From Haliclona indistincta (Eukaryota; Porifera; Demospongiae; Haplosclerida; Chalinidae): DNA of 64,000 nucleotides. The notes beneath the pieces are model-generated. The model was not told the origin of the DNA and searched no databases. It was given only the letters and a program-made list of their open reading frames with translations. The stretch lies in NCBI GenBank assembly GCA_964017065.1, contig OZ024788.1, positions 454,938 through 518,937 on the forward strand, read 5' to 3'. Made by a program: the position numbers and the translations under genes. Within the stretch, counting starts at the first letter, position 1. Each line of letters starts with the position of its first letter. This document shows, piece by piece, positions 2,144 to 58,220 of the stretch.

Positions 2144-3662
2144 TCATAATAAGCTATTAGTATTGTCAGCAAATGGGTTGTCTCCTAGAGCTGGTTGCCT
2201 AGGGAACGTCTGTTGGCTGGTGGGTACAGCAATCATTGACGACTGGGTTGGTTGAAGGACACTAGTAGAGTAAGGGGCGGGGCTAGACACACCCACTGGG
2301 TTCAGTATAGATGAGGACCAGCCCATTCCAGTACTAACTGATGATGCAGCTAATAATGAACCTCCTGGTCCTACTGGTGTCAGTAGAGGAGGTGGCTGGA
2401 GTGATGGAGCTGATGATGGTCCTGGTGCACCTGATGATGAGTGTAGGTTCATTCCACCTCCTCCTCTGACTGATGGTGCAGCTGCTGGTGATGGTTGGAG
2501 TGGAACCAGACTAGGTGATGATGACCAGCTAGCCCCTCCCCCTGCTCCTCCCATTGCTGGAGATAGTGTTGGCTGAAGAGAAACCGAGCTCATTCCTTCT
2601 CCTCTTACAGCAGGTGACCAACTTGTCCCTCCTCCTGCTGGAGTCATAACAGTTTGTTGAAGAGGTGCTGTAGATGATGACCACACTCCACTCGATGCTG
2701 CTGTTGGTTGTAGAGATGGTATTGAGTTCATTCCACCTCTCACTGCAGCTGGTGACCAGTTAGTCCCTACTGATGGAGCTGGTGTCAGTATACTAGCTGC
2801 TGCTGGTGGTGTGGGCTGGAGAGATACTGAGCTCATTCCTCCTCCCACTAGAGGTGTTGGTTGGAGAGGTAGTGATGGTGCTTGGTAGTTCACTTGTGAT
2901 GTTGGAGGGCGTGTCATGGGCGGGGTCTGATAATTCGTGGTCTGGCGAGTGGTAGCTAATGATGAGATATCTAGTCCAGATGATGTGCTGTTAGTGGTGG
3001 GCGTGGTCAGTCTATTAGTGGGCGGGGTCAATGATGAGCTTTAGGTAAGACCTGCGAAAAAATCATCCGATACAGCTGCCTGTATGTAGAGGTGTGTCGA
3101 CCAATCAGATGCAAGCAGTCACGTGACTTACCGTACTATAGTTGGTAGCCTGGTAGCTGTGCTACCACGAGAGGGCAGGACTGCTTCTTGTGCTGGGACA
3201 CCACTAGACATGGAGTCTATCCTGGACAAGGAGTCCTCCATTGACTTGTTATCCATCACCTCACGAGCATACTCTACTGATGACCTGAGGGAAGGAGAGA
3301 GAGGGAGGGAGGGTGGGTGGGAGGGAGATAGGGAGGGAGAGACGAAGGGAGTGAGATGAATACGTCAGTGAGTGAGTGAGTGTCATACTTGGTTTGTTCC
3401 TCGATCTTCGAGAGCTGTGTGAGGTGAGCCTGTTGTTCTGTCTCCATCTGTTTCAGCATCTCTCTGATCACTGCCATGTACTGTGTGAACTGCACCAGCA
3501 GCACTGTTAGCTTTCTCTGTCGTATGTTAAATTATCTACTAACCTGTGACAGGTTGAGTGAGGACTCCAGTGAGAGAGGAATGAGGTAGGGCAGGACCCT
3601 CTCCCCGAGATAATGCTTGTCCAGTCTTAGCTTCTTATTAGTTGCTGTGGTATGGAAGATCC
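2144..3662 (-). pseudogene. SCYL2-like: SCYL2-like 3' fragment, unit 1
   Basis: Exons at about 3662-3544 (GIFHTTATNKK to LNLSQ), 3489-3389 (FTQYMAVIREMLKQMETEQ), 3284-3132 (EYAREVMDNKSMEDS) and 3079-2144 (Ser/Pro/Gln-rich tail ending NPFADNTNSLL). The first two match the HEAT-like region of SCYL2, a pseudokinase of clathrin-coated vesicles. The NPF tripeptide in the tail would suit EH-domain binding. Everything 5' of the GIFHTT exon is missing, and the DRAM-like gene lies directly upstream instead. The exon ending near 3132 is 7 nt shorter than its unit 3 counterpart, which shifts the frame. The last exon also reads TAA near 3034 where units 2 and 3 read TCA. I call it a truncated, broken copy. 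The last-exon open frame itself is long and clean. Confidence 0.8.
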
Positions 3663-29182: not shown

Positions 29183-30470
29183 TTTGATGATAGCTGGATT
29201 GATAGCCCCTCCCAGTCACGTCATGCGCTGGTCACGTGAAATTATTATCAATTCGTACTCGCAACGCGACAAGCGACCTGAAAAAGGCTGTAACTCAATG
29301 AGTGAATGTAAAAGGAATCGTGTCTTACTCATTTGTATTATTCGATTATTCGATTTTACTCTATTCTATTCTTCTATTGCTGCCTTTCTAATAAAGACTT
29401 TCTAACTATCGAACCCCCAAACGCTACACTGATGATGCAGCTAATAATGAACCTCCTGGTCCTACTGATGTCAGTAGAGGAGGCTGGAGTGATGGAGCTG
29501 ATGATGGTCCTGCTGCACCTGATGATGAGTGTAGGTTCATTCCTCCTCCTCCGACTGATGGTGCAGCTGCTGGTGATGGTTGGAGTGGAACCAGACTAGG
29601 TGATGATGACCAGCTAGCCCCTCCTCCTGCTCCTCCCATTGCTGGGGCTAGTGTCGGCTGAAGAGAGACCGAGCTCATTCCTTCTCCTCTTACAGCAGGT
29701 GACCAACTTGTCCCTCCTCCTGCTGCTGGTGTTGGAGTCATCATAGTTTGTTGAAGAGGTGCTGTAGATGATGACCACACTCCACTCGATGCTGCTGTTG
29801 GTTGTAGAGATGGTACTGAGTTCATTCCACCTCTCACTACAGCTGGTGACCAGCTAGTCCCTCCTCCTGCTGCTGGTGTTGGAGTCATCATAGTTTGTTG
29901 AAGAGGTGCTGTAGATGATGACCACACTCCACTCGATGATGCTGTTGGTTGTAGAGATGGTGCTGAGTTCATTCCACCTCTCACTACAGCTGGTGACCAG
30001 CTAGTCCCTCCTCCTGCTGCTGGTGTTGGAGTCATCATAGTTTGTTGAAGAGGTGCTGTAGATGATGACCACACTCCACTCGATGCTGCTGTTGGTTGTA
30101 GAGATGGTGCTGAGTTCATTCCCCCTCTCATTGCAGATGGTGACCAGCTTGTCCGTACTGCTACTGCTGGTGTCAGTATACTAGCTGCTGCTGCTGCTGC
30201 TGGTGTGGGCTGGAGAGATACTGAGCTCATTCCTCCTCCTCCTCCTACTAGAGGTGTTGGTTGGAGAGGTAGTGATGGTGCTTGGTAGTTCGCTTGAGGG
30301 CATGTCATGGGCGGGGTCTGATAACTCGTGGTCTGGCGAGTGGTAGCTAATGATGAGATATCTAGTCCAGATGATGTGCTGGTTGTGGTGGGCGTGGTCA
30401 GTCTGTTAGTGGGCGGAGTCAACGATGAGCTTGAGGTAAGACCAGCGAAAAAATCATCTGATACAGCTGC

Positions 30471-30523
30471 GGGTTATGAACCATATAAGCTGTCACCAAA
30501 TAGCTAATTAAAAGTGTGGGTGT
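30471..30523. repeat. Left terminal inverted repeat (53 bp)
   Basis: Begins gggttatgaaccatataagc and is a perfect inverse complement of 48944-48996. Confidence 0.95.
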
Positions 30524-30537
30524 AATTTGCATGCTAC

Positions 30538-32700
30538 TACTGTTCCTCTGGTTCCCACAGTTCCACTGGTTTCCACAGTTCCACTCGTTCCCACCGAGTT
30601 TCTCTGGTTCCCACAGTTCCACTGGTTTCCACAGTTCCACTCGTTCCCACAGTGCCTCTGGTTCTCACAGTTCCACGGTTCCCACAGTTCCTCTGGTTCC
30701 CACAGTTCCTCTGGTTCCCACAGTTCCTATGGTTCCCACAGTTCCTCTGGTTCCCTCAGTTCCTCTGGTTCCCACAGTTCCTCTGGTTCCCACAGTTCCT
30801 CTGGTTCCCTCAGTTCCTCTGGTTCCCACAGTTCCACAAGTTCCCACAGTTCCTCAGTTTCTCTGGTTCCCACAGTTCCACTGGTTCCCACAGTTCCTCT
30901 GGTTCCCACAGTTCCTCTGGTTCCCACAGTTCCACTGGTTCCCACAGTTCCACTGGTTCCCACAGTTCCTCTGGTTCCCACAGTTCCACTGGTTCCCACA
31001 GTTCCACTGGTTCCCACAGTTCCTCTGGTTCCCACAGTTCCACTGGTTCCCACAGTTCCTCTGGTTCCCACAGTTCCTCTGGTTCCCACAGTTCCTCAGT
31101 TCCTCTGGTTCCCACAGTTCCACTGGTTCCCACAGTTCCACTGGTTCCCACAGTTCCTCTGGTTCCCACAGTTCCTCTAGTTCACACAGTTCCTCTGGTT
31201 TCTACAGTTCCTCTGGTTTCCACAGTTCCTCAGTTCCACTAGTTCCCACAGTTCCTCTGGTTTCTACAGTTCCTCAGTTTCTCTGGTTCCCACAGTTCCT
31301 CAGTTTCTCTGGTTCCCACAGTTCCACTAGTTCCCACAGTTCCTCTGGTTCCCACAGTTCCTCAGTTTCGCTGGTTCCCACAGTTCTATAGTTCCCACAC
31401 TAGGCAGTTCCTCTGGTTCCCACAGTTCCTCTGGTTTCCACATTTCCTCTGGTTCCCACAGTTTCTCTGGTTCCCTCAGTTTCCCTGATTCCCACAGTTC
31501 CTCTGGTTCCCACAGTTCCTCAGTTTCTCTGGTTCCCACTGTTCCACTAGTTCCCACAGTTCCTCTGGTTCCCACAGTTCCTCTGGTTCCCACAGTTCCT
31601 CTGGTTCCCACAGTTCCTCAGTTTCTCTGGTTCCCACAGTTCCTCAGTTTCTCTGGTTCCCACTGTTCCACTAGTTCCCACAGTTCCTCTGGTTCCCACA
31701 GTTCCTCTGGTTCCCACAGTTCCTCAGTTTCTCTGGTTCCCACAGTTCCAAAGTTTCTCTGGTTCCCTCAGTTTCTCTGGTTCCCACTGTTCCACTAGTT
31801 CCCACAGTTCCTCTGGTTCCCACAGTTCCTCTGGTTCCCACTTTCTCTGGTTCCCACAGTTCCTCAGTTTCTCTGGTTCCCACAGTTCCAAAGTTTCTCT
31901 GGTTCCCACATGCAGTTCCTCAGTTTCTCTGGTTCCCACAGTTCCACTAGTTCCCTCAGTTCCTCTGGTTCCCACTGTTCCTCAGTTTCTCTGGTTCCCA
32001 CAGTTCTATAGTTCCCACATGCAGTTCCTCTGGTTCCCACAGTTCCTCTGGTTCCCTCAGTTTCCCTGGTTCCCACAGTTCCTCAGTTTCTCTGGTTCCC
32101 ACAGTTCCTCTGGTTCCCTCAGTTTCTCTGGTTTCTACAGTTCCTCATAGTTTCTCTGGTTCCCACAGTTCCTAAGTTTCTCTGGTTCCCACAGTTCTAT
32201 AGTTCCCACAGTTCCTCTGGTTCCCACAGTTCCTCTGGCTCCCACAGTTCCTCAGTTTCTCTGGTTCCCACAGTTCCACTAGTTCCCACAATTCCTCTGG
32301 TTCCCACAGTTCCTCAGTTTCTCTGGTTCCCACAGTTCCATAGTTCCCACAGTTCCTCTGGTTCCCACAGTTTCTCTGGTTCCCACAGTTCCTCAGTTTC
32401 TCTGGTTCCCACAGTTCCTCTGGTTTCCACAGTTCCACTGGTTCCCATGCACAGTTCTATATATAGTTCCCACAGTTCCACTGGTTCCCACAGTTCCTCT
32501 GGTTCCCACAGTTCCTCAGTTCCTCTGGTTCCCACAGTTCCACTAGTTCCCATGCACAGTTCCTCTGGTTTCCACAGTTCCTCATGATTCCACAGTTCCT
32601 CTGGTTCCCACAGTTTCTCTGGTTCCCACAGTTCCACTGGTTCCCACTGTTCCACTAGTTCCCACAGTTTCTCTGGTTCCCACAGTTACGGTGCATACAG
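30538..32700. repeat. Left 18-bp tandem array
   Basis: About 120 units of gttcccacagttcctctg with variants: cctctg/ccactg, and deletions giving cctcagtttctctg. The inner end is the more degenerate and contains small insertions such as atgcacagttctatatat. Open frames in several phases reflect the lack of stop triplets in the unit. Confidence 0.95.
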
Positions 32701-33355
32701 TTTCTCTGGTGCATAACCTCGGCTTAGTATTATGCAGGGCGGCCTGGTGTAGCTATTGATTGTTGCAGGTATAAACCATGATGAGTTTGCAGTGCAAGGA
32801 ACTAATGTACTGATCTTTTGTTGCATGCATGCATGCCAGGCAGTGACAAGTCCTGACACTGCCACTGCAAGTCCTTAGATTTTTTCTTCTCGCAAGTACA
32901 TGTATACATGTATTGCCATAGTATTATCTATGATGTAGTGATCACCACCATACACATGGCATTGATCTCACACATGAATGTATTTCAATGAACTTGCATG
33001 TATCACATTTTGTTATGATTTATACTTTGGCCATACTGTGTGCATTATATACCTACTGCACACTGCATATATGGCTTAGATTCTCTTCTCGCAAGACTAC
33101 ATTGTGTAAGTATGGCCAAGATCATGCACAGAGTATTGATCTCACACATGCATTGAACGTCTGCATGGGAATGGCAGGCTATAATTATAATTTTTTTCCA
33201 TGTTTTGACTGCAACAAACCCACTGTCTATATGCCTGCTGATTGTGATATGCAGTGTATAGCTCATGCAGTCACGGTATACTTGCATAACACAAAAAAAT
33301 TGTCATTGAATGTGATGATTGATTTCAGATCTAGTCTGTCAGGTAAGCAAATACA
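32701..33355. other. Element core, left non-coding part
   Basis: AT-rich with tgcatgcatg runs. No coding sequence recognised. Confidence 0.5.
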
Positions 33356-36300
33356 TTAATTTTGTAAAGGATTTTCAGAATTGAGACCCTTGCTCCATCC
33401 GGGCAGCTTTGTATTACGCCTGGTGGACCTCATTGAGAGAGAAGCTACAGCTTTACGCTTGCGAGATCTTGCTCTGGCTTCGGCTTCTTTCTCTTTAACT
33501 TTGTCTGATTCTGTCTCTTTCTCTATCTTTCTCCCTACAACTTCATCTGGTCCTCCATCTTTCTCTCTCTCTGTTACCTGTGTGGAAGTATGAGAGTCTC
33601 CTGCTTCATCCATGTATTCTTCTTGTGAGCCTACATTTTACCAAAAATACATGTGTGCTATAGTATGTATAATTATACCAATTATGTCCTCAATACAGGT
33701 GTCTCTTGCCATTAGGGGTTCTTCCTGTGGACCTACATTTACAAAAAAATACATGTGTACTATAGTATGTATAATTATACCAATTATGTCCTCAATACAT
33801 GTGTCTCTTGCCATTAGGGGTTCTTCCTGTGAACCTACATTTAAAAAAAATGCATGTGTACTATAGTAATAGTGTATGTATACCAATTATGTCCTCACTA
33901 CATGTGTCTATAGTCTCGCCATCCTCTATGTGTTCTTCCTGATGTGAGTCTGCATTTTACAAAACAATACATGTGTACTATAATAGTATATGCACACAAT
34001 CATGTCCTCACTGGGTGTGTCTCCTGTTTCAACATCCTCTTCCTGATGTGAGTCTGCATTTTACAAGCAAACACATGCATGCATTGTGTACTATATTTAT
34101 GCATGCAAGTTAAGTCTTCACTATTGTGTGTCTATATAATTGTACTGCCTCGTAATGCACAGTGACATAATTATTCTGAACCATTATACTCTATAACATA
34201 CCTCTACTGCAATCTGTAACCACGTTATGATCTGGATCAGTGACTATATGTAAACATGAGTATTGTGTAAAAGAATGTTGTTCAAATAGGCCACCAATTT
34301 TGCTAAAATGCTAGATGAAATAATGCTACTATGTAAATACATTATACCTTTCTTGAGTTGAGCCTGCAAGTCAGGCGGAAGGCAGCTCAGTTTTATAACA
34401 CAACACTTCCTCTTATATGATGTCTTCAATGCTCCTCGTGAAATGGTAGTGGTGGAAGCACCACGGACAAGGAAGTCACGTGCCACATTTTTATATATGC
34501 CAGAATCAGTGGCCACAACACATTCCTTTACTTCGGTACATGTATGGCTTAGAAAAGATGCCACATCTTCTAACACAACTGCTAGTACATCATTGTTAGT
34601 CCGCATGTACTGAAGGACCTATATACACCACACATTGTTATAGTCTGGTAATGAAATCAAGGACGTAAAGATGGCATATGGCCAACAAAGTACAAACAAG
34701 GTACACGTCAAAACATCCATTGCCTCAGTTCTATTCAAATATGAAGTATAATACTAAGTATAATACTAACCTCAGTTCTATTCTGTTTCATTGCCACGGT
34801 TATCAACTCTGAAATGGTAGTATTTATTATTTCTCTGTTGTCTGAAGGAGATTTGCATATCTCTGCAACAGCTGGTGACTTAGAATCCTTAAGTTGCTCA
34901 ATTATATCCTCTATCATCAAGTCTGACTCTCCCACTACTAATAGCTATGGTAGTAACAGACCATAATAACATCACAAACAAGTGATACAAGTCAAGACAT
35001 GACACCTTACCCTCTTCAGAAAGAACATAAGTAGTGCCCAATTTTGCAGAGATCGGCCGTGATAGATTCCACGCAATTTCTCCTTTATTTCCAGTACTTC
35101 ATCCCTTCCTTGTTGTGATAAAAGTGCTTTACCCTGAGCAATGGCCCAACCAATAGAAGAAGAGAGTGTACCGCTTGAAATAAGCTGCTCAAGCTCAATG
35201 AATACTTCTTCTTCTTCACAAGTGACTGGGGCAACAGGTGGCAGTTTAAAATTTATCACAGTTGCACGAGATGCAACCCTGATGAAAAGCAGATAAAGAT
35301 AATAATCAACATACATTCCTGCACATAATTTATATGCATGCGATTAGTACCATTAGACATGCACATTTGAAGCAGTCCCAGGTAGAATTCAGACCAAAGT
35401 GCACTACCAGTGATAAAGCGTTATACAGAACAAACTGAATTGACAGGTATAGCAACAGAATAGTATTAAACAGCATTTTGAAAGTTATTTAACTCTAAAA
35501 GCACAGTACTGTTTTAGCCACAACATGTACTTTTGCTATTATATTTTAATCTACGATTGCCATCTACGATTACGATGATTGTCCTCATGTCTCATTCTAC
35601 AACAAAAAGTAAAAATGTCACAATACCAGCCTATAGTCTTGTCGCCCACGCTTATTATACTAAGAAATAGCAAATTTGCATGCATGTGGATTTCCTTACA
35701 CAGGTAAACGTGTCGGTGACATGCGTGCTATATAGTAAATCTTATAGTGTCATAATTAGCTCAAGTTTTAAGACACTTTGAACTACTAACTAATTAGTGC
35801 AGATATATACCTGTTGTCACTGCTAATGTTGAAGTTACTGGCAATAAGAGGAGTAGATAACGGCTCCAAAGATCCCTTCCTGAGATTAGCTGTTTTGAAT
35901 CCGTTGTACAGGTCAATGATAAGGTCATTGATATCCAATGTGCCACTTTTAGACCGTGGTGGATCATCAATACTATACGGTAATGTGCATATGGCAGCTC
36001 GCTCTAAGAAGAACGAGTTGGTTCCTTTTACGTATACTCCCACACCTTGTGATCCTGTACATGCCAACTTGGTACATAGAATGTTCACTATATAATCTTT
36101 TCACTTACCAAAAAGAGAAAGAGCAGCCTTTATTGAGGTTGATTTTCCTGTCTCGGAAGGACCCACACAGACTACTGTGGGACACCCAGCAAATGCCTCA
36201 GTTACATCTTTGTAGTGTAGAGCTAGTAGGCCACCAGCGATGACTAAGAGTGCATTGATGTAGTTGTGTTTTAATGCACAGCTACAAAGAAATATTAATT

Positions 36301-39300
36301 TCTTCACAGGTGATGGTGTTAGAGGGAGGTGGACCATGGGAAGAAGATCATGTGATGGCACATTCTCTGTTAAAACGGGGGTGTTGTGGTGACACTCCAT
36401 GTTGTGTAGGTACTCGTTTAAAATTGAGAATCAACGATTTTAAACGAGTACCTACACAACATGGAGTGTCACCACAACACCCCCGTTTTAACAGTGTTGC
36501 TGATCTCTCCCAGCAGCATTCTGTCCAACCAGATGAACTTGGACGTTGTGTCATCTATGGTGTCACCATTTCTATCAATCTTTAGTGAAAATAATACATA
36601 TAGTTACAACGCTGCAAGCTTGTGTATATAGTCAATGGGGAGTGCTCAACATGACCTAATATATAGTTATAGACAGAACATCTAAGGACCTATAATTTTT
36701 TATGCTATTTTTAAAACCGAGCGCCATTTATATAGAGTACGAGGATAGCAAAGACTCTATGGGAATGGCGTGAAGGTTTCTAAATCGTGTAGATCCGATT
36801 TTATGTGGTGTCCAACTTATATAGACAACAGTGGCGGAATTCCACTACGGGTGGTAAAATTATAAATAGTGTCGCGGGATAATATATACTAGGAGATTTA
36901 GAGCCATGTAACTAGCCAATTTGATTGGCCAGTGTCATTGAGCTGTATATATAGTCTAAGTCAAATTGATCCTACTGCTATAACCATTTAAACCGACTTA
37001 ATAATAGGTATGTGGACTTCCTACTTGTCAGGGAATCCGAGTAAAATATTTGCTTTAATTAAAGGAGATAGGAGGGAGGGCCACTCCTTGTAACAATCTC
37101 CTCAAGGGGTCAGGAACCCTCCTTTTGTTTTAATTGGAATGATGAGAATGTGAAAGGGAGGGTAGTTGTGATTACGCTAGTAGTGATGCAGCTGTCAAGT
37201 GAGTCGACTATGCATGCTTGCTGCGGCATGCATAGGCATTTTATAGCATTGCAGCTGCTTCTGGCAGCCTGCACCAATGCTGTTTTGCTTAATAAGAGGG
37301 ATGTTATCATTAGTATAGGCATAGATAATACAGTGTACTGTATTATCTAGATAATACAGTACACTGTATTATGCCATAGACTGTATTATATAGTATCTAT
37401 GGTATAATACAGTACACTGTATTATACCATAGATAATACAGTGTACTGTATTATCTATGGTATAGGTTTCTAGCCTGCTACCTTAAGGTGGCGGTATACC
37501 ACTAGTGCCACTAGTTGTGCACACTGTGGCGGTATACCACTAGTACCTTATTAAGGTGACGGTGTACCACTAGTGCGCACAAGTTATGCACACTGTGAAT
37601 ATCGTTAGTCGGCAACCACATCTGTGCAGTGGGGGCGTGGACTTCCTCGTTATAATGTATTCACTGATAATTCTAGTCTGCTTAGCTTCTAGCCAAGAAT
37701 CTGCACCTGTATAATTAATTTTAGTTCAAGATGGGCTAACCTACTCAAAGCTAAGTACATTTTGCAGGTGCGGACGAAGCATTTTGTTGACCCACGCTGA
37801 ACATAGCTGTTTTATGCACAAACAAGCATGGGTGTCACTGCAAAATCAGCCATGATTTTGGATGTGTAAGTGTTTTTCTTAAAATCAGAAAACGTAAATG
37901 CAAAAACCTCTTCGTCAGCACCTAGAAATGGTTTATAAGACTCGAATTTCAACTATTAACCTTTGCTACACGGCTAGCCAGGAGATATTTTTGGCTAGAA
38001 AAATGCATATCCGTACAATGTCGATTATTCTATGGTGTAGAATATTGTGCAACATTTCAAGCTGCTTTATACATTGACACACTCGATGATGGGAGTTTGA
38101 CGTTGCTAGCGTTGCTCTGTCATGAGCAACAGAAACTGTACAAACATGCCAAACAATACATATTACTTTTCGTGTTGAATGCTGAAAATATTTTGATGCT
38201 GAAAATTGTTTGTAAATAGATGCTTTTTTCGTTTTGTACTGTACATACCTGCAGATTCTTTCCGAGCACCCAAACAGTTCCGCATGGCTGTCTTCCAATA
38301 ATTGTAGCAGCCTTCTTTATTGGCAGGTCCTTTTGTACTCTTTTGAGGTGCATAATCATCCCTGCAAATTGAAGATCATTCAATGCCAGTGACATCCCCC
38401 CACTGCCGAACGAGCTATTGATTTGAGCCATGAAGCGTGCTTTGTTACTGGTGCTCTCCATTGAGAAAAAGCACTGGCTGCAAGTAATAATTAATAATAG
38501 TAAATTATAGTTTTTGTAACAACTTTACTTGATTTTGCCATCAACAGCTCTTTTCACTTTTGCAAGAAACCCTGTATTAGGTCCAGCCTCTACCAAGCCC
38601 TCCAACTCAATGGCAAAATCTCCCTTAGCATCAGATTTTGTTCCAGATTTAGATAATGTGCCCACTGCTGGAGGGTCCCAGTCTATGTAGTATGAAGTCT
38701 ACCAAAAGATAATTTTGTACAGTAAATATTGTGTTTGCATTGGCTCCAACTAGTATTGGCAGTGCGCTTGGACTCAAGGTGTGACCTACTTAGTGGTTCA
38801 AAGTGAGCACCTACACAAAAGCTACAGGGTGTAGCAGACAGGGTCTGGCTTGTGGTTTGATACAGTTTATACACAATGCTTTGCTTAATCTTAGCAAAGC
38901 AACAGTTTTTTTTCTAAACTCACAAAAGTGTGCATGCTATACACTACAAGATCAAAACTGAATTGTTGACCAGGTTAGTATGATTTACAAGTCAGTTTAA
39001 GGTCATGTTCAAAACTACTTACAGTGGAGACAGATGAACTATTAAGTGAAAAAATTTTCAAGGCGTTTGTGTCTTAATGTTTAACACAGTTACATGCTAT
39101 TGCTGCAAATGATCTATAGGCTCACATCTGCAGGCACATCAAGGAATACAAAAATCTTCACAAGGTTTCAGCCGGCTGTAAGATTTATTTAGATTTTGTA
39201 CTATAAAACACTGCCTGCTTGTGGTGCATTGTGTAAACTGTATCAAACCACAAGCATGACTCTGTCTGCTTGCTTCTGACAACAGCGCTGAACCACAATG

Positions 39301-39796
39301 TGCTGATGCATGCAGCGGCAGTATACAATAAGCGTAAGCTCCACCTCGGACTAAATAAACAAACCGACCAGCCAGCATCCAGCATTCTTATGACCCTCAT
39401 GACATTGTTGCGTGAATAGAACGCCGTTCCAGGCAACACTGTTGCGTGCAACATTGTTGCAGCCAACAAAGTTGTGTAGTGTATCATCGTCTTAATGTAA
39501 ACTGTTGCAGACCTTCGTCTTGTGATAATTATCATACCGACTGATAGGACTGCGGCATATATACGGCAGTACGAGTATGTATAGGACGTGCTGCATGCAA
39601 ATGAATGTGAAAATGTACACTCATGATCAATATTGTTTAACATCTATCATCTATGTTATGAAACATTAACGCTTACGGTTGGACGGATTGCCGGCTGAGA
39701 GTCATCTGTTTCAACCGAATTTTCTCGCTGCGGTGTTGAATATATTGAGGAGCCGCGGTCTGCTACACCAACGTCTAAGTCGCTGAATTCGGCCAT
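33356..39796 (-). CDS. P-loop ATPase gene of the 18.5-kb element
   Basis: Exons with agreeing phases: 39796-39677 (start ATG, MAEFSDLDVG), 38698-38529, 38477-38249, 36579-36109, 36054-35811, 35278-35011, 34944-34771, 34618-34348, 34243-34202, several mini-exons in 34110-33680, and 33630-33356 (TAA). About 730 residues. The fourth exon has a Walker A motif, GPSETGKST, near 36138-36164. The next has LPYSIDDPPRSKSGTLDIND and NLRKGS, plausibly the rest of the nucleotide site. The C-terminus is acidic then strongly basic (RARSRKRKAV). I cannot name the family. A transposition ATPase or helicase-like partner of the transposase is an inference from position. The 128-bp palindrome in the fourth exon brings a stop; without it the frame closes exactly. 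Confidence 0.7.
33630..34110. repeat. ~115-bp tandem repeat carrying mini-exons
   Basis: About five units in the 3' part of the ATPase gene. Each has an acceptor (TGTAG or TGCAG), a short acidic coding stretch of the type SQEEPLMARDTC or SHQEEHIEDGE, and a donor position. In two units the donor reads GTGAGG; in two others it reads TTGAGG, so those would be skipped or read through. Confidence 0.75.
36367..36494. repeat. 128-bp perfect palindrome inside an ATPase exon
   Basis: Arms of about 58 nt (ctgttaaaacgggggtgttg) around a 12-nt loop (tgagaatcaacg). It interrupts the exon 36579-36109 and adds an in-frame stop. The flanking frames differ by 2 nt, and 128 leaves remainder 2 on division by 3, so removal restores the frame. 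No target duplication is obvious. Confidence 0.88.
37318..37465. repeat. Nested palindromes of ataatacagt units
   Basis: Alternating agataatacagt and actgtattatct motifs forming several overlapping hairpins in the third intron of the ATPase gene. Just after, at 37475-37600, a ggcggtataccactagt motif occurs three times. Confidence 0.8.
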
Positions 39797-40296
39797 GATG
39801 ATCAGCCTGGATTTCTGACTCAGTCACTGGCAATACCACGTGCAATAACACTGAGCTGCTATAATTAATTATTATACTAATAAGCGTCGCGCTCCAGGCT
39901 GCAGCAGTGCCGACCAGGCGTTATCTATATCTCTGACTGCTTGATCGTTCCCCTTGTTGTCATGCGGCTGTCAACTGTATCAACTTCTTGCCTGCATGCT
40001 TATCCTGTCGATCCAATGTTTATGTGCATGTGCTATTCAGATTCCACCGCATATTTGCAACACGTTGTTGTCAAACACGAAGAGATGTCAACTCAAAGAC
40101 ATACATCTTGGGTTATTGCACCCGGTTCTCTTGGTGTTCCATTTCAAGTGCAAGAGGTGACTGACTATGCATTCACCCAACTTAATTATAGATTGGGATA
40201 GCATTTGCACTGAGATCATATTAATTTATTATTATTATTATTAATTTTTTCTTTATCATATAATGATAGGTTTTAAACAATAATTATCTTCTCTCA
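39797..40296. promoter_or_regulatory. Divergent gap between ATPase and transposase genes
   Basis: 500 bp between the two start codons, the likely shared control region of the element. A frame at about 39941-40155 (STQRHTSWVIAPGSLG) ending in a possible donor could be an upstream exon of the transposase gene. No core motif is named. Confidence 0.4.
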
Positions 40297-42204
40297 ATGG
40301 CAAAAATTCATTTTCTACCCTGGGTTTTACTTTGGGACCCATCCACTCAAACACCTTTTGTTAAAGTAGGTCTGGAATGTCCAGTTTGTCATTGCAAAGT
40401 TATTAAAAAGACATGGAGGACAGGATATACACAGGGAAAAGATCCACGTATTCTTTATTCCTTTGATAAGGCAATTCTGCTACTTGGGGCAACATATTTG
40501 TGCCAAAACAAGCATGAGACAATATCATATGATCCACGCATCAGTGCATACTACAAATCAAAATCCTCTCTACCTTTTATTCTTGGACACCGATGCGGGT
40601 TTACAAGAGAATTTTTTAACAATCTTGTTAGTCATTTGTCTCAAGGTATTTCATTTCAAGGACTTGAACAATTAATTCGTAACAGCCACAAAACATTCTT
40701 TGTTAACTATGAAATGAGGTTCTGGGCAACACTACAGACAACGTATGCCATTAATGCAAAAGACAATGTTGCTGCAAGAGCTGCTGCTGGCAAATGCATA
40801 GCGACTGTTGAGAATTTAATTAATGAAGCATACAATATAATCGCTTTAAGGAATCCTGGACGGCATGTTCTTCACGATGGATTTCTGCAATGGTTCTTTG
40901 AAAATGAAGAGTACTATGTACAACAAATAGCAGACACAACAGTCGATGAGTGCATTTCCTTTGATCACACCTTTAAGTTAGCCTCCAATATAGGTTACTG
41001 GAGGCCAGATGGTAAATGGGTGCCACAGTATGACTCCGTTTGTTTTGTAATGAATGAGAATGGACAGGTCATTACCTGGAGGTTTACGAGGCAAACTTCA
41101 TTTGAGCAGATTAGCCCAAACCTATCTCAGCTTAAAGAACGACTTAAACAACAAGGAAAGGAAATTAAAATAGTAGCTATAGATAATTGTTGCCAACTTA
41201 GGCAGAAAATACAGCAAGTATTTGGGCCACAAGTGAGAGTGACTCTGGATCTGTTCCATGCTACAGCTAGAATAATTCGCACACTTCGGAAAGGACACAC
41301 TCACTGTCACCATTGTTTAGCTGACTTGCGCAATGTGTTTAGAGCTGACGATGACTTGAACAAGCAGAGAATGAAGGCAACCCCTACCAGTACTGAAATT
41401 ATTAAAAAGCTGGAAAGTTTTAGTTGCAAGTGGGAAGGCGTTGAAGGATTATTTACTGAAAAGACATCTGTGGAACTGAACTCTTTGTCCAATCATATTC
41501 GCAAAGGGTGCCTGTCAGGAATACAGCCACATCATGGTACAAATCAAAATGAAGCTTTACATCGTTACTTAAATCCACACTTCTCTTTACCAAAGATGGG
41601 AGTAGATGTTGCTTATGCTCTTTTAATGATTTTGTTAGTTTCCTACAATTGTCGACATCAAAAGACTACTAAAGAAGCACAACTACCATCAGCAACAGCA
41701 AAGGCAAACTTTGTTTCTTCATTGCAGCCTGCTCTAGCTGATCATGACACCCTACAGCCCAAATGTGATGAAGTATTTGGGATGCCAAGGGACACCATTC
41801 AACAGAGTACTTGGATCATGCAGAAACTATCCACATACGAGGAAGCTCTGGATTGTTTCAGCAAAACTGCAGCTGATGCCGAATATGACTTTGAAGATGA
41901 CTTTGAAGATGATGACCCTCTTACACTCCCTTGCATTATGCAAATTCTTTCAAAGGCTATGTACCTTGAGAAACTGACAACTGAAATGAAGCAAAAGTTT
42001 ACCTCCTCCTCTTTATTCGACTATGAACATGTACCTTTCATGAGCAGTGTTCTTTCTCTCTTTCATCGGAAACAGTACAGTCCACTTAGACAAAGCTGTG
42101 AGGAGCACTTAAGAAGATTGACCAGCAGGCTAACTAGTTTTGGCTATGAAAGAGTTTCTATACCAGGTGATGGAAATTGTTTTTTCAGAGCTTATGCTGT
42201 GCAG

Positions 42205-42788
42205 TTAAGGCTGGAAATCCCAAACATCAGGATTACGAATATTTTGGTTTCTACTGTTAGTTGAAGGCTTGGTCAGTCACACTGATCACCCAAGAAAGTC
42301 GCCATTCGTCTTGTGGGCGTAGCAAGCCCCACCCAATGACGAAAAGTTGCGTTTCTTTCCTGAGCATGCCACACCCACACAAAATGTCAGACATAAACTT
42401 TGGTAGACAAGGAAGAAACGTATGTATCGGATTTTGCAAAAAGGTCTCTGTCTGTAAGTTACAGAGGGGCGAATATTTAATGAGAACACACGATTTCGGC
42501 AAAAATCCCCTACCAGCAAGAGCGATGGAAGAAGATACATCTCCTTTTGCCAGAGCGCCAAAAAAATGCCACCTGACGCCCTCCCGCCCTCCCCACGACC
42601 CACCCACCCCTATGTGGGTCTCTCCTGATTGCCGAGTACGAAATAATTTTGTTCCAAATACGGCAAGTGCTACTGGAGTGTGGGTACACCCATTTTCTTT
42701 GTAAAACGGGCAAGTAATAGCCAGGACACTGTAGATTATATTGTGCAAAGGGCAGCAAGAAAGAATAGTTCGGGTTTTCCTGGCTTAA
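42205..42788. mobile_element. TTAA-flanked MITE, copy A (576 bp)
   Basis: Body 42209-42784 between TTAA tetramers. Ends ggctggaaatccc and ttttcctggc form imperfect inverted repeats. TTAA duplication is the piggyBac hallmark. Differs from copy B at about two positions. Confidence 0.88.
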
Positions 42789-42855
42789 AGCACTAACTCA
42801 GGTTATAAATAGCACAGTAGACAATGAATACCATTATAGTAACTCAACTTTAGCT

Positions 42856-43439
42856 TTAAGGCTGGAAATCCCAAACATCAGGATTACGAATATTTTGGTT
42901 TCTACTGTTAGTTGAAGGCTTGGTCAGTCACACTGATCACCCAAGAAAGTCGCCATTCGTCTTGTGGGCGTAGCAAGCCCCACCCAATGACGAAAAGTTG
43001 CGTTTCTTTCCTGAGCATGCCACACCCACACAAAATGTCAGACATAAACTTTGGTAGACAAGGAAGAAACATATGTATCGGATTTTGCAAAAAGGTCTCT
43101 GTCTGTAAGTTACAGAGGGGCGAATATTTAATGAGAACACACGATTTCGGCAAAAATCCCCTACCAGCAAGAGCGATGGAAGAAGATACATCTCCTTTTG
43201 CCAGAGCGCCAAAAAAATGCCACCTGACGCCCTCACGCCCTCCCCACGACCCACCCACCCCTATGTGGGTCTCTCCTGATTGCCGAGTACGAAATAATTT
43301 TGTTCCAAATACGGCAAGTGCTACTGGAGTGTGGGTACACCCATTTTCTTTGTAAAACGGGCAAGTAATAGCCAGGACACTGTAGATTATATTGTGCAAA
43401 GGGCAGCAAGAAAGAATAGTTCGGGTTTTCCTGGCTTAA
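42856..43439. mobile_element. TTAA-flanked MITE, copy B (576 bp)
   Basis: Body 42860-43435, same orientation and length as copy A. It is separated from it by 71 bp of unique coding sequence, so two insertion events are more likely than one duplication. Confidence 0.88.
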
Positions 43440-44404
43440 TTGGTGTCGCCAAACTATCAGTAGAACTGGCTAACTGCATATCACAAGCGGGTATTGATCT
43501 TAATGACGTAGAAGAAGGAATAGTTCAGAAACTTCGCCAGTTGATTGTTTCAGAGTGGTTAAGCAACCCTGAGCGTTATCAGCCATTTTTAGTGGATTCT
43601 ACAGTTTTTGACGAAGCCCCAGCTTTCCTTCAGTCTGGTCAATTTAACTTAGAACTTGGCAACACTATGCCACTGGCAATGACCCATGTCTTGGGTATAC
43701 CTATCATAATTATCTCTTCTCTGGAGAATCATGGCATTATTAGAGTGGACCCAGAAACACCAATCACATCTCTACCATTGGTTCTTGCATTTAACCAGTA
43801 TGGAGCAGGACACTACGATGGAGTTAAAGATATCTCCAGGGAAGATGCAGTGAAACCAGTGAAATGTCGTTGCGGTATTAACAAGAAGTCTAAAAGCCCA
43901 GTCTCGTGTGTCTCAGTAGTAGGACAGTACTCTTCCAGGTGCAAGTGTTTCAACTCACGTAAACAATGTTCATCTGCATGTGGGTGTGTCAATTGTGATA
44001 ATCCACATGGTAAGAAACCGCAACCAGCCACCATTGCAATTGGCAAGAAGCGAGTGCGACAGCACCATGAGCTGACTCAACCTCAGCAAGTAAAGAAATT
44101 TCTTGAAGGGAGAGGAGAGGAAGTAACGATGGGATCTTGGACAATGCTTGAGTACATGATTTTCGCATTGGTAATTCAGTTCTATTTTGATGAAGATTTA
44201 CAAGTATGTACACAGAATATACATCTCTCCTTTAATCGAGTCATTGACACAGCCAATTCCTGTCAGGATTTACAATTACCTGTTGGTCACAAAACAGTTA
44301 GGCAGATAGCAGCAAGATACAGTAGGTATCGTGATGTTCTGTCTGTCTTTCGCACATTGTTTTGTCAACAGGTTTCTCTGAATGTAACAACACTTGATGA
44401 TTAA

Positions 44405-46086
44405 TTGTATTTTGTGAGACATTACTGACTGTTTAATCCAATCTTTGCATGCATGTACCAACTTAATGTTAATCATGCAAAAATTATCAGAAAATACTGG
44501 CATAATAATTTGCATGCATCATGCGGCACGGCACGAAAATACTCCTATTTTATTTCTAAGCTGGACAAGTACATACAAATGCATGCACTAATAATTGCAA
44601 AACACGAAATGATTACTAAAACACTGAATTCTCCAAAATAGAGAGGTAAAAATGTTCAAGTATCGCCATCCATGCTTGTTTGCATGTGTGGCTTGCCAGC
44701 CATATGCATGAAGTAGCCGTATATACAGTGAGGAATCTGTATATGCACCTGGTTGTATACAATTTTGGTATCCATACTGCAAGTCAGTGTCACCTGCAAA
44801 ACAACATTACAAACACAATGCAGAGCTAAGAGCAAAGTATACTTTTAGTAAGAGATTAGGGATAGTAATGGAATGACTCCGATTTTTAAACTATTCATTT
44901 AGCAAGTATAAATGTACTTGCATACACCACTCATGCATGTTATACTTAGTACATTATCATGCGCTTACTATTAGTGCATGTCATGCATGCATGATTCTTA
45001 TAAACTTCAATACCTGCAGACTATTTACACGGTTCTTGACAGATGTGGCATCATGCATGCTCATCATGCATGCAGTGTAGCCCAGACTCATGCATGTGTT
45101 TCTCCCTATAATTTTTCAGTATGCATAATTTATACATGCAGTCTTTCTCTTATGATATGGGTTTGTTTTCGGCTCCTGCATATGCATCATGCTGTTAATT
45201 GGGTAATACAGATCTACATCAATTATTGTACAGCACTCATGAGTGGCATATCCATGGCATGTGTAAACCACTGATTTTTTTTTCAGAAAAGATCTAGGCT
45301 ATGGTTTTCTTAGCACACACGTCACAATGCTCATGCAGTGGTAACGTTTACTTTGCAAACCAATACATTTAGCCAGAACTCACATGAACACCAAAATATA
45401 CCCTTTAGCAATTGCACTGCAGCTATGATTATATAATGATTCACTCTATCTTCATGCACAGCAATAACTATAATGCTATTTCACCACTTAGTCCTATTGT
45501 TGAAGCTAAACATGCAAACACAGATTAATAATTTTAATTATTACATGTCACTGCAGCATGCATGCAGTTATGCTATCTGCACATTATGACCATCTATATT
45601 TTCAGTATAATAATACTGCTGCAATAAACAATGCATGCACTCGCGCAAACACTGTTTCAAGTTTTATTCTACATTGACCTACATTGTATCACCTATTGTA
45701 CACACTTGCCCTAGTCTTATTATCACTCTTTCTGTACCCCTACAATTTTTGTCAGCTTTTGAAATTTTATTCTATATTGTCACTAATCCAGTACGATTCA
45801 TTAGTATCATTTTGCAATTGAACATATAAACACATAGACACCTTGTACTCCAACAAACACACTGATAGTATAATTTTATCTATGCATGCGACATATAGCT
45901 GGCTATTATTATTATGATCTTTCAGAGTTTTAATCTAAAATTTGTAACACTTGCATGCATTATTAACTAGTGTCCAATACAGTGAGCTGCATTGTTAGAG
46001 GAACTGTCAGTAAGGAACTGCAGTATATAACAAAGAAACAAGTCAATGAATCGTGCATGCATGCAAAAATGAGGAACGTTGTGATA
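44405..46086. other. Element core, right non-coding part
   Basis: AT-rich with many atgcatgc motifs. No coding or RNA feature recognised on either strand. Confidence 0.5.
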
Positions 46087-48940
46087 TATTATAGTGAAGG
46101 GAAACCAGAGGAACTGGGGGGAACCAGAGTAACTGGGGAACCAGTGGGAACTAGTGGAACTGTGGGAACTAGTGGAACTGTGGGAACCATTGGAACTGGG
46201 GGGAACCAGAGTAACTGGGGAACCAGTGGGAACTAGTGGAACTGTGGGAACTAGTGGAACTGTGGGAACCATTGGAACTGGGGGGAACTTAACCAGAGTA
46301 ACTGGGGAACCAGTGGGAACTAGTGGAACTGTGGGAACTAGTGGAACTGTGGGAACCATTGGAACTGTGGGAACTAGTGGAACTGTGGGAACCAGGGGAA
46401 CTGTGGGAACCAGAGGAACTATGGAAACCAGTTGAACTGTGGAAACTGTGGGAACTAATGGAACTGTGGGAACCATCGGAACTGTGGGAACCAGAGTAAC
46501 TGGGGAACCAGTGGGAACTAGTGGAACTGTGGGAACTAGTGGAACTGTGGGAACCATTGGAACTGTGGGAACTAGTGGAACTGTGGGAACCAGGGGAACT
46601 GTGGGAACCAGAGGAACTATGGAAACCAGTGGAACTGTGGAAACCAGCGGAACTGTGGGAACTAGTGGAACTGTGGGAACCAGTGGAACTGTGAAAACCA
46701 GCGGAACTGTGGGAACCAGAGGAACTGTGGGAACCAGTGGAACTGTGGGAACCAGTGGAACTGTGGGAACCAGAGGAACTGTGGGAACCAGAGGAACTGT
46801 TAGAACCAGAGGAACTGTGGGAACCAGAGGAACTGTGCAGGGGAACCAGAGGAACTGTGGGAACCAGTGGAACTGTGGGAACCAGTGGAACTGTGGGAAC
46901 CAGTGGAACTGTGGGAACTGTGGAAACCAGAGGAACTGTGGGAACCAGTGGAACTGTTGGAACTGTGTGAACTAGTGGAACTGTGGGAACCAGTTGAACT
47001 GTGGGAACCAGTGGAACTGTGGGAACCAGTGGAACTGTGGGAACCAGTGGAACTGTGGGAACCAGTGGAACTGTGGGAACCAGTGGAACTGTGGGAACCA
47101 GTGGAACTGTGGGAACCAGTGGAACTGTGGGAACTAGTGGAACTGTGGGAACCAGTGGAACTGTGAAAACCAGCAGAGCTGTGGGAACCAGAGGAACTGT
47201 GAGAACCAGAGGAACTGTGGGAACCAGAGGAACTGTGCATGGGAACCAGAGGAACTGTGGGAACCAGAGGAACTATGGAAACCAGAGGAACTGTGGAAAC
47301 CAGTGGAACTGTGGAAACCAGTGGAACTGTGGAAACCAGTGGAACTGTGGAAACCAGTGGAACTGTGGAAACCAGCGGAACTGTGGGAACTAGTGGAACT
47401 GTGGGAACCAGTGGAACTGTGAAAACCAGCGGAACTGTGGAAACCAGAGGAACTGTGAGAACCAGAGGAACTGTGGGAACCAGAGGAACTGTGGGAACCA
47501 TTGGAACTGTTGGAACTGTGGGAACTAGTGGAACTGTGGAAACTAGTGGAACTGTGGGAACCAGAGAAACTGAGGAACTGTGGAAACCAGTGGAACTGTG
47601 GAAACTAGTGGAACTGTGGAAACCAGTGGAACTGTGGAAACCAGTGGAACTGTGAAAACCAGCGGAACTGTGGGAACCAGTGGAACTGTGGGAACCAGTG
47701 GAACTGTGAAAACCAGCGGAACTGTGGGAACCAGTGGAACTGTGGGAACCAGAGGAACTGTGAGAACCAGAGGAACTGTGGGAACAAGTGGAACTGTGGG
47801 AACCAGTGGAACTGTGGGAACCAGAGGAACTGTGGGAACTGTGGAAACCAGAGAAACTGTGGGAACCAGTGGAACTGTGGGAACCAGTGGAACTGTGGGA
47901 ACAAGAGGAACTGTGGGAACCAGTGGAACTGTGGGAACCAGTGGAACTGTGGGAACCAGTGGAACTGTGGGAACCAGTGGAACTGTGGGAACCAGTGGAA
48001 CTGTGGGAACCAGTGGAACTGTGGGAACCAGTGGAACTGTGGGAACCAGAGGAACTATGGAAACCAGAGGAACTGTGGAAACCAGTGGAACTGTGGAAAC
48101 CAGCGGAACTGTGGGAACTAGTGGAACTGTGGGAACCAGTGGAACTGTGAAAACCAGCGGAACTGTGGGAACCAGTGGAACTGTGGGAACCAGTGGAACT
48201 GTGAAAACCAGCGGAACTGTGGGAACCAGTGGAACTGTGGGAACCAGTGGAACTGTGGGAACAAGTGGAACTGTGGGAACCAGAGGAACTGTGGGAACCA
48301 GAGGAACTGTGGGAACTGTGGAAACCAGAGAAACTGTGGGAACCAGTGGAACTGTGGGAACCAGTGGAACTGTGGGAACCAGAGGAACTGTGGGAACCAG
48401 TGGAACTGTGGGAACCAGTGGAACTGTGGGAACCAGTGGAACTGTGGGAACCAGTGGAACTGTGGGAACCAGTGGAACTGTGGGAACCAGAGGAACTATG
48501 GGAACCAGAGGAACTGTGGGAACTGTGGAAACCAGAGAAACTGTGGGAACCAGAGGAACTGTGGGAACCAGAGGAACTGTGGCAACCATTGGAACTGTGG
48601 GAACCAGTGGAACTGTGGGAACCAGTGGAACTGTGGGAACCAGAGGAACTGTGGGAACCAGAGGAACTGTGGGAACCAGTGGAACTGTGGGAACCAGTGG
48701 AACTGTGGGAACCAGTGGAACTGTGGGAACCAGTGGAACTGTGGGAACCAGTGGAACTGTGGGAACCAGAGGAACTACGGGAACCAGAGGAACGGTGGGA
48801 ACTGTGGAAACCAGAGAAACTGTGGGAACCAGAGGAACTGTAGGAACCAGAGGAACTGTGGGAACCAGTGGAACTGTGGGAACCAGTTGAACTGTGAAAA
48901 CCAGCGGAACTGTGGAAACCAGTTGAACTGAGGGAGCTAG
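46087..48940. repeat. Right 18-bp tandem array (inverse of the left)
   Basis: About 155 units of ccagtggaactgtgggaa and close variants. It is the inverse complement of the left-end unit, so the arrays extend the terminal inverted repeats inwards. Blocks of several units repeat as higher-order groups, for example those containing gtgaaaaccagcgg. Confidence 0.95.
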
Positions 48941-48943
48941 TGG

Positions 48944-48996
48944 ACACCCACACTTTTAATTAGCTATTTGGTGACAGCTTATATGGTTCATAACCC
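48944..48996. repeat. Right terminal inverted repeat (53 bp)
   Basis: Ends cttatatggttcataaccc, the inverse complement of 30471-30523. Confidence 0.95.
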
Positions 48997-49204
48997 ACAG
49001 CTGCCTGTATGTAGAGGTGTATCGACCAATCAGATGCAAGTAGTCATGTGACTTACCGTACTAGTTGGTAGCAGTTGGTAGCCTGGTAGCTGTGCTACCA
49101 CGAGAGGGCACGACTGCTTCATGTGCTGGGACACCACTAGCCATGGAGTCTATCCTGGACATGGTGTCCTCCATCACCTCACGAGCATACTCTACTGATG
49201 ACCT

Positions 49205-56391: not shown

Positions 56392-57939
56392 ATATATCCT
56401 TCGTGTGGGGAGATCGAGATTGTATTCATATTCACAGTCACGTATTATCTATGGTCACGTGAGCACCGTGTGTCGTGTATATAATGGTCTAGCGGTCAGT
56501 CTGCAGGAACCAGTTCACTACTTGAGCAGGATCGTTTCTACTACATGTATCTAGGAAATTATTAGACACCTTTTCAACTGACAGCTGTTTCCCGGATTGT
56601 AAAAACTATGAAAGCAGCAGTCAGATTCCTCGTTTATAGTAAATATTATCCTAACACATCGTTTTGTAAAATCGACGTTTAACAGTTTCCTGGATTGTAG
56701 AAACGGTGATTATCTATTATCACAATGTTATCATGTTGCCTGGCTATTGTATAAAAAGAGCAGAGAGCATTGTGATAAAAAGCTCTATTACAATAAGCTG
56801 TTAGTATTGTCAGCAAATGGGTTGTCTCCTAAAGCTGGTTGCCTAGGGAACGTCTGCTGGCTAGTGGGTACAGCACTTGATCCAATCATTGACGACTGGG
56901 TTGGTTGAAGGACACTAGTAGAGTAAGGGGCGGGGCTAGACACACCCACTGGGTTCAGTATAGATGAGGACCAGCCCATTCCAACTGATGACACAGCTAA
57001 TAATGGACCTCCTTGTCCTACTGGTGTCAGTAGAGGTGGTTGGAGTGATGGAGCTGATGATGGTTCTGGTGCTGCACCTGATGATGAGTGTAGGTTCATT
57101 CCTTCTCCGACTGATGGTGCAGCTGCTGGTGTTGGTTGGAGTGGAACCAGACTAGGTGATGATGACCAGCTAGCCCCTCCTCCTGCTCCTCCCATTGCTG
57201 GGGCTAGCGTCGGCTGAAGAGAAACCGACCTGATTCCTTCTCCTCTTACAGCAGGTGACCAACTTGTCCCTCCTCCTGCTGCTGCTGGAGTCATCATAGT
57301 TTGTTGAAGAGGTGCTGTAGATGATGACCACACTCCACTTGATGCTGCTGTTGGTTGTAGAGATGGTGCTGAGTTCATTCCACCTCTCACTACAGCTGGT
57401 GACCAGCTAGTCCCTACTGCTGGAGCTGGTGTCAGTATACTAGCTGCTGGTGGTGTGGGCTGGAGAGATACTGAGCTCATTCCTCCTCCTCCAACTAGAG
57501 GTGTTGGTTGGAGAGGTAGTGATGGTGATTGGTAGTTCACTTGTGATGTTGAAGGGCGTGTCATGGGCGGGGTCTGATAACTCGTGGTCTGGCGAGTGGT
57601 AGCTAATGATGAGATATCTAGTCCAGATGATGTGCTGTTAGTGGTGGGTGTGGTCAGTCTGTTAGTGGGCGGGGTCAATGATGAGCTTGAGGTAAGACCA
57701 GCGAAAAAATCATCCGATACAGCTGCCTGTATGTAGAGGTGTATCGACCAATCAGATGCAAGCAGTCATGTGACTTACCGTACTAGCGGCAGCAGTTGGT
57801 AGCCTGGTAGCTGTGCTACCACGAGAGGGCAGGACAGCTTCTTGTGCTGGGACACCACTAGCCATGGAGTCTATCCTGGACAAGGAGTCCTCCATTGACT
57901 TGTTATCCATCACCTCACGAGCATACTCTAGTGATGACC

Positions 57940-57943
<4 letters not shown>

Positions 57944-57992
<49 letters not shown>

Positions 57993-58220
57993 AGGGAGAG
58001 AGAGAGGGGGAGAGGGGGAGGGAGGGAGGGAGAGAGGGAGAGAGAGGGAGGGAGAGAGAGAGGGGGAGGGAGAGAGGGAGAGAGGGAGAGAGAGAGAGAG
58101 AGAGGGGGAGGGGGAGGGAGAGAGGGAGAGAGGGAGGGAGAGGAAGGGAATTAAGGAGGGAGGGAAGGAGAGAGAGACAGAGAGAGAGACAGATGGAGGG
58201 AGAGAGGAGAGAGAGAGGTG
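57944..58220. repeat. GA/GGGA microsatellite, SCYL2 intron
   Basis: Directly before the acceptor of the EYAREVMDNK exon. The unit 1 counterpart is only about 60 bp. Confidence 0.9.

Follow-up and report, generated by a model that had tools for sequence, protein, structure and literature searches.

A two-gene DNA transposon with repeat-array ends and a predicted replication-type helicase in the sponge Haliclona indistincta

What kind of mobile element carries a transposase, a divergent ATPase gene and more than a hundred short repeat units at each end, and what could the ATPase do there? The question is raised by an 18.5-kb DNA transposon, with ends fixed to the base, at positions 30471-48996 of a 64,000-nucleotide stretch of the Haliclona indistincta genome (the window). 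Its boundaries, including the terminal inverted repeats (TIRs), are the following.

3072..3079, no strand: empty target site in a sister unit (gapless junction alignment)
30463..30470, no strand: target site duplication ACAGCTGC, 8 bp, left copy (flank comparison)
30471..30523, plus strand: left TIR, 53 bp, perfect (end-versus-end match)
30542..32687, plus strand: left array, 18-bp unit GTTCCTCTGGTTCCCACA made of two 9-bp halves, about 117 units
46144..48944, minus strand: right array, about 159 units of the 18-bp repeat, in inverted orientation to the left array
48944..48996, minus strand: right TIR, 53 bp, perfect (end-versus-end match)
48997..49004, no strand: target site duplication ACAGCTGC, 8 bp, right copy (flank comparison)
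57719..57726, no strand: empty target site in a second sister unit (gapless junction alignment)

The element in the window and its two genes

An earlier note on this DNA had described the 8-bp duplication, the perfect 53-bp inverted repeats, the inverted repeat-array ends and the two undisturbed target sites, and each was recovered at the positions listed. The 52-bp core of the TIR (at most three mismatches) occurs twice in the window versus 0 times in 100 shuffles. At a shift of 18 the self-identity of the two arrays is 0.74 and 0.86, against means of 0.29 and 0.28 for shifts of 3-59, and the 18-bp unit consists of two related 9-bp halves. When the flanks of the element were joined at a single ACAGCTGC, they aligned without a gap at the junction to the sister units around 3072-3079 (87% over 701 columns) and 57719-57726 (88% over 835 columns). 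Therefore, the insertion is genuine and has two natural empty-site controls. The sister units are repeated at window positions 29691-30173, 2675-3355 and 57322-58142, and include the region hit by the insertion.

The interior holds a transposase gene on the plus strand and a P-loop ATPase gene, predicted below to encode a helicase, on the minus strand.

33356..33637, minus strand: open frame encoding a basic stretch that resembles a nuclear signal, probably the 3' end of the helicase gene (position and tail likeness to families 2 and 3, by eye)
34202..36579, minus strand: conserved part of the helicase (P-loop ATPase) gene (ORFs, comparison with family 2)
34348-34618, minus strand: C-terminal exon of the helicase gene
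ORF 34975-35343, minus strand: SR motif of the helicase
ORF 35789-36100, minus strand: Walker B SIDDPP and sensor-like IASNF of the helicase
ORF 36104-36430, minus strand: Walker A GPSETGKST of the helicase
36367..36494, minus strand: near-perfect hairpin, about 128 bp, in the P-loop exon of the helicase gene, z -21
38249..39796, minus strand: 5' exons of the helicase gene (hand model)
40297..42264, plus strand: N-terminal part of the transposase, DDE core (DHTF, DNCC, DLFH = D(2)H, NEALH) and start of the OTU domain (GDGNC)
42205..43506, no strand: insertion splitting the OTU domain, two 651-bp units
43493..44404, plus strand: remainder of the OTU domain (GHYD) and CXC domain of the transposase

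The DDE/OTU/CXC transposase-like gene proposed in the earlier note has weak Pfam matches of its own (CXC at 1.4e-5, just under the cut-off), and it aligns with the transposase of a second family (family 2), whose OTU domain exceeds the Pfam cut-off. The proposed divergent, multi-exon P-loop ATPase gene was likewise found, by comparison with family 2 and an exon model; in its 5' region, ORF 38123-38524 matches family 2 at 36% (E 1.5e-7). Both genes are interrupted in the window copy. The transposase frame is broken within the OTU domain by an insertion of about 1.3 kb, which consists of two 651-bp units that agree, without gaps, at 605 of 651 positions, and the hairpin at 36367-36494 disrupts the helicase frame unless it is spliced out. 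Judged from its sequence, a copy with the OTU domain split and a hairpin in the helicase is probably not autonomous and would need help from another copy, unless splicing removes both interruptions. A 102-bp repeat at window 33617-33909 is placed similarly to the mini-exon run of family 2 described below.

Related elements in the same genome

In the 144-Mb genome, the 52-bp end core (at most three mismatches) was found at seven places, and the reversed control at none. Two of the seven are the ends of the window element, two form a pair at C6:314567-322523, and the other three are solitary ends. The C6 pair encloses a second copy of the window family (family 1), of 7957 bp and with its own 8-bp duplication, CTCCATCC. 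The search for other copies flanked by 8-bp duplications, proposed in the earlier note, thus had a positive outcome, although the C6 copy is rearranged, with an inverted transposase piece of 95% identity, and helicase DNA is absent from it.

Family 2 was found with the window transposase as query, through a 35%-identical unbroken frame on C1 and C2. Its long copies measure 19.6 kb (C1:795337-814908) and 20.8 kb (C2:8031541-8052360) and contain both divergent genes, at 32-36% amino-acid identity to those of the window, the P-loop gene lying on the strand opposite the transposase. The TIRs are 88 bp long and perfect, preceded by a shared GG[C/T], and the arrays are again of 18-bp units, with a sequence that differs from that of the window arrays. 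As the same gene pair recurs between such ends, the array-ended two-gene transposon described earlier is no single-copy accident, and the co-occurrence of the two genes was upheld. If GG is taken as the end of the element, the duplication CATTATTA flanks the C2 copy, and the C1 copy has none (CTAATCTC versus GACGGCGT). The transposase frames of the two copies are identical over 993 codons and their interiors are 99.4% identical over 15.2 kb, from which we infer recent movement of the family. Two short derivatives were also detected, one with the perfect duplication ACTCCTCC and a partly masked interior, the other of about 0.55 kb with a duplication matching at 6 of 8 positions (GTATGCAC, GTATGCTT).

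The helicase gene of family 2 was modeled by hand as 10 exons separated by nine introns (eight GT-AG, one GC-AG), giving 609 amino acids in phase; the comparison with family 2 and the exon modeling were run on an element one base short at each end. Downstream of the model, a 27-bp mini-exon is repeated 26 times, and then comes the basic tail IKKRKKRRADCLQDGLSSLYQPSNTKRKRK. Since a 27-bp mini-exon preserves the frame, the length of the helicase tail could vary freely. The mini-exons are flanked by GT and AG at a spacing of mostly 72 or 80 bp, and the run occupies positions 7127-5111 of the transposase-forward element C1:795337-814908, on the opposite strand.

A third family was reached through a distant helicase match. 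Its two copies, C7:12054585-12068692 and C2:17096340-17110372, are about 14 kb each, with TIRs of about 100 bp and 17-bp arrays (arrays read fully in the C7 copy only). Here the shared GA[A/G] was taken as the end; the duplication GTTATATC then flanks the C2 copy, and the C7 copy has none (TTGTCAAG versus TCAATTAA). The helicase matches that of family 2 at 30% (E 7e-17). The transposase is of a different, MULE type: its exon matched FAR1 (0.005), the ZSWIM1-3 RNaseH-like domain (1.4e-5) and MULE (0.0022), all below the curated cut-offs, and it lies downstream of the helicase on the same strand, not divergently.

Clean 8-bp duplications are thus present in each of the three families, and common to all three are inverted ends built of 17-18-bp units from 8-9-bp half units. 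In families 2 and 3, one of the two long copies has a clean duplication and the other lacks it; exchange between elements may lie behind the missing duplications at C1:795337-814908 and C7:12054585-12068692.

Arrays can arise by slippage and without any function. Such ends could be passive expansions in the manner of Foldback/Galileo, produced by slippage or unequal exchange, with a transposase that recognizes only the terminal 50-100 bp and a helicase captured early as cargo. Array length indeed varies among copies within one family, the short derivatives of family 2 have kept their TIRs with about 20 array units or fewer, and the inverted ends of Galileo are long and internally repetitive (PMC3573991, accessible part). 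Against this, three families with different array sequences all have inverted 17-18-bp units, and the helicase has been retained, with its Walker residues conserved, across 32-36% amino-acid identity, as mere cargo need not be. We consider a purely passive origin rather improbable.

To see how regularly the two genes go together, helicase matches were merged within 20 kb into 25 places, and at eight of these a transposase match occurs no more than 15 kb away. In three of the pairings the transposase is of the OTU-CXC type (the window element and both copies of family 2), in four of the MULE type (both family-3 copies, C3:14335243 and, at a distance of 14.7 kb, C4:5141871, which may be due to chance) and in one of the KDZ type (C4:13847052). 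The mean expected by chance was 0.5 (0.9 when the fragment-rich part of C4 was respected) and eight were reached in 0 of 5000 runs, with the lengths of C3, C8 and C9 guessed and rows beside already-listed ones omitted from the transposase lists. The test was not blind, because families 1-3 were the queries, and recent copies were counted twice; about five or six pairings are independent, among which those at C3 and with KDZ had been unknown before the test. No transposase match lies within 15 kb of the other 17 helicase places, which include several short fragments on C4. The family-3 transposase exon has 42 matches, and most of these lack a helicase match in their vicinity.

At C4:13847049-13853021 a KDZ core and a helicase-family core were read directly, 5.3 kb apart and divergent (cores only). 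At C3:14335243-14339636 a helicase remnant lies about 4 kb from a remnant of a MULE of the family-3 type. The helicase at C2:19061393 (83% to family 3) has no transposase match within 15 kb. A further helicase remnant (C6:11343166, in C6:11339331-11343669, locus L054) is separated by 3.5 kb from a short array whose 17-bp unit has another sequence, and neither a second array nor an intact element turned up in the 17 kb read there.

Resemblances of the two proteins

The transposase core is predicted to have an IS256/Mutator-like RNase H fold, accompanied by OTU and CXC domains. In the fold comparison ISCth4 was the best match, a P-element chain appearing at E 0.036 only. The catalytic pattern of IS256/Mutator is D, D, [C/D](2)H, E, and among 34 relatives of the transposase D281, D376 and H379 are present in all, D354 and E484 in 33 each. 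Pfam MULE matched none of the 34 at E 0.1 and Transposase_mut one (E 0.084). An OTU cysteine protease agrees with the predicted OTU fold, which contains Asp, Cys and His. From IS256/Mutator (MULE) elements such as ISCth4 the window element differs by the OTU and CXC domains, the long arrays and the second gene.

The earlier note had also tentatively placed the element near the KDZ/Zisupton group, that is Kyakuja, Dileera and Zisupton, which are TIR-bearing. The TIRs and the 8-bp duplication, the latter reported for Zisupton and Dileera (PMC12730594, accessible part), are present as expected for this group, but the profile of the KDZ transposase domain is missing. PF18758 gave 14 matches in the genome, which serve as a positive control, and neither the window element nor family 2 is among them; the family-2 transposase did not match even at E 1, and of 34 relatives none did at E 0.1. 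KDZ/Zisupton membership was thus rejected. A tie to the group persists through the KDZ match on C4 described above, with its member of this helicase family at a distance of 5.3 kb.

Ginger1 elements are DNA transposons known from animals whose transposase has a C-terminal OTU domain, with a Gypsy-integrase-type core, 4-bp CCGG-type duplications and a size of about 2.6-7 kb (PMC2836005, accessible part). The window element has instead 8-bp duplications free of a CCGG/CCGT-type sequence, an IS256-like predicted core and 18.5 kb, and Ginger1 was ruled out by duplication length and predicted core. The duplications of Foldback/Galileo elements are 7 bp long. Galileo shares the long, internally repetitive inverted ends, but its transposase is of the P-element type (PMC3573991, accessible part), and membership was rejected given the 8-bp duplication and ISCth4, rather than the P-element, as best fold. 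A viral origin was discarded as well: when the transposase alignment was run against viral contigs, 72 pattern stretches and no confirmed relative emerged. None of four proteins exceeded the NCBIfam cut-offs.

The P-loop ATPase is predicted to be a Cch/SaPI-Rep-like helicase of the replication-initiator type. The best matches of its fold model were the replication helicases Cch (SCCmec) and Rep (SaPIBov1), and the likeness extends to the stretch preceding the ATPase core; the model is that of the relative P0121, not of the broken window gene, and compares with Cch at 16% identity and an rmsd of 5.8. The DUF927 profile matched 30 of 58 helicase relatives at E 0.1 (best 4.8e-7); family 3 reached 15.3 bits against a cut-off of 22.6, and the family-2 hand model gave no match at E 1. 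Among the same 58, weak matches to phage DNA primase (10), clamp loader (7) and primase/helicase (2) families are taken as shared ATPase ancestry. Pfam revealed no primase or polymerase in six frames of the window element or, in families 2 and 3, in the two genes and a few other frames; five further frames of these families had no match at E 0.1. Cch and Rep belong to bacterial islands moved by other recombinases, whereas the window helicase gene is eukaryotic and spliced, and is accompanied by a DDE transposase gene and by more than 100 repeat units per end.

Transposase and AAA-type ATPase in one element are also the plan of Tn7 and Mu. The ATPase could accordingly be a partner for target choice or transposase control, like TnsC or MuB, and no helicase. 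However, the best matches of the model are replication helicases, also in the stretch ahead of the ATPase core, and this explanation appears very unlikely. TnsC-like proteins do not occur among the fold matches listed, an absence that carries little weight either way.

A possible role for the helicase at the array ends

Our preferred reading, given about even chances of being right, is a cut-and-paste transposon with a replication-initiator-type helicase that would load on the end arrays, unwind and perhaps copy the element. The IS256/Mutator-fold transposase would bind the TIRs, cut and join. The arrays would act as iterons, i.e., as binding sites of a self-loading initiator, and the helicase would load on them as Rep does on its iterons. 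The OTU domain may take ubiquitin off host or transposition proteins, and the CXC domain may serve in DNA binding. Long copies found by their ends are few, two each in families 2 and 3, so copy number provides no argument for strong amplification.

A bolder version is a class of own-initiator transposons, in which the self-loading helicase fires from iteron arrays at both ends, amplifies the element and, within a single genome, serves as a module shared by no fewer than three kinds of transposase (OTU-CXC, MULE and KDZ). This we hold to be possible but doubtful.

VANDAL elements are Mutator-like elements of Arabidopsis, and their anti-silencing protein VANC is not known to be an ATPase. The strongest rival explanation is that the arrays are landing sites for such an element-coded anti-silencing protein, bound by the ATPase or the CXC domain and without a role in replication, since VANC21 likewise uses a densely arrayed 9-base motif, in one orientation, on VANDAL21 (PMC5735166, accessible part). 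The 8-9-bp half units of all three families recall this motif, and the 26 repeated 27-bp mini-exons of the family-2 helicase recall the tandem peptide motifs of VANC genes. VANDALs also share with the present element a Mutator-type character, additional proteins and short motifs in dense arrays. In the accessible part of the same article, however, the motifs are internal, in introns and upstream of a gene, and inverted array ends are not described, whereas the arrays here are inverted and at both ends. Moreover, the conserved Walker motifs would be unneeded by a pure DNA-binding factor. We regard anti-silencing as an unlikely explanation of the arrays.

OTU domains in transposases (Ginger1, PMC2836005) and repetitive inverted ends (Galileo, PMC3573991) are already known from the accessible parts of these articles. 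In open-access text we found no published description of a Cch/Rep-like helicase in a eukaryotic TIR transposon, nor of a transposase combined with OTU and CXC domains. The open-access texts examined for DUF927 in eukaryotic transposons concern, in their accessible parts, bacterial elements, and such an element is not described in the accessible part of a review on giant transposons (PMC6431247).

If the preferred reading is true, several consequences follow. Cut-and-paste transposons are thought to depend on the host for copying, a rule that the combination of a DDE transposase, an initiator-type helicase and iteron-like end arrays would break. Eukaryotic transposons would be linked to bacterial genomic islands, and a possible purpose is suggested for the long repeat-array ends of large transposons. 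If the own-initiator version also held, a cut-and-paste lineage would have brought an SCCmec/SaPI-type replication system into eukaryotic chromosomes, for which we know of no earlier case. The idea is testable at once, because the two copies of family 2 have identical, unbroken transposase frames.

Finally, a composite repeat, in which a 33-bp array is followed by a 59-60-bp array and then by an inverted 33-bp array, occurs at window 19679-20249, at positions 2501-3003 of locus L029, at 2210-2956 of locus L030 and at C7:12069411-12070038. From its repeat structure it looks like another array-ended element.
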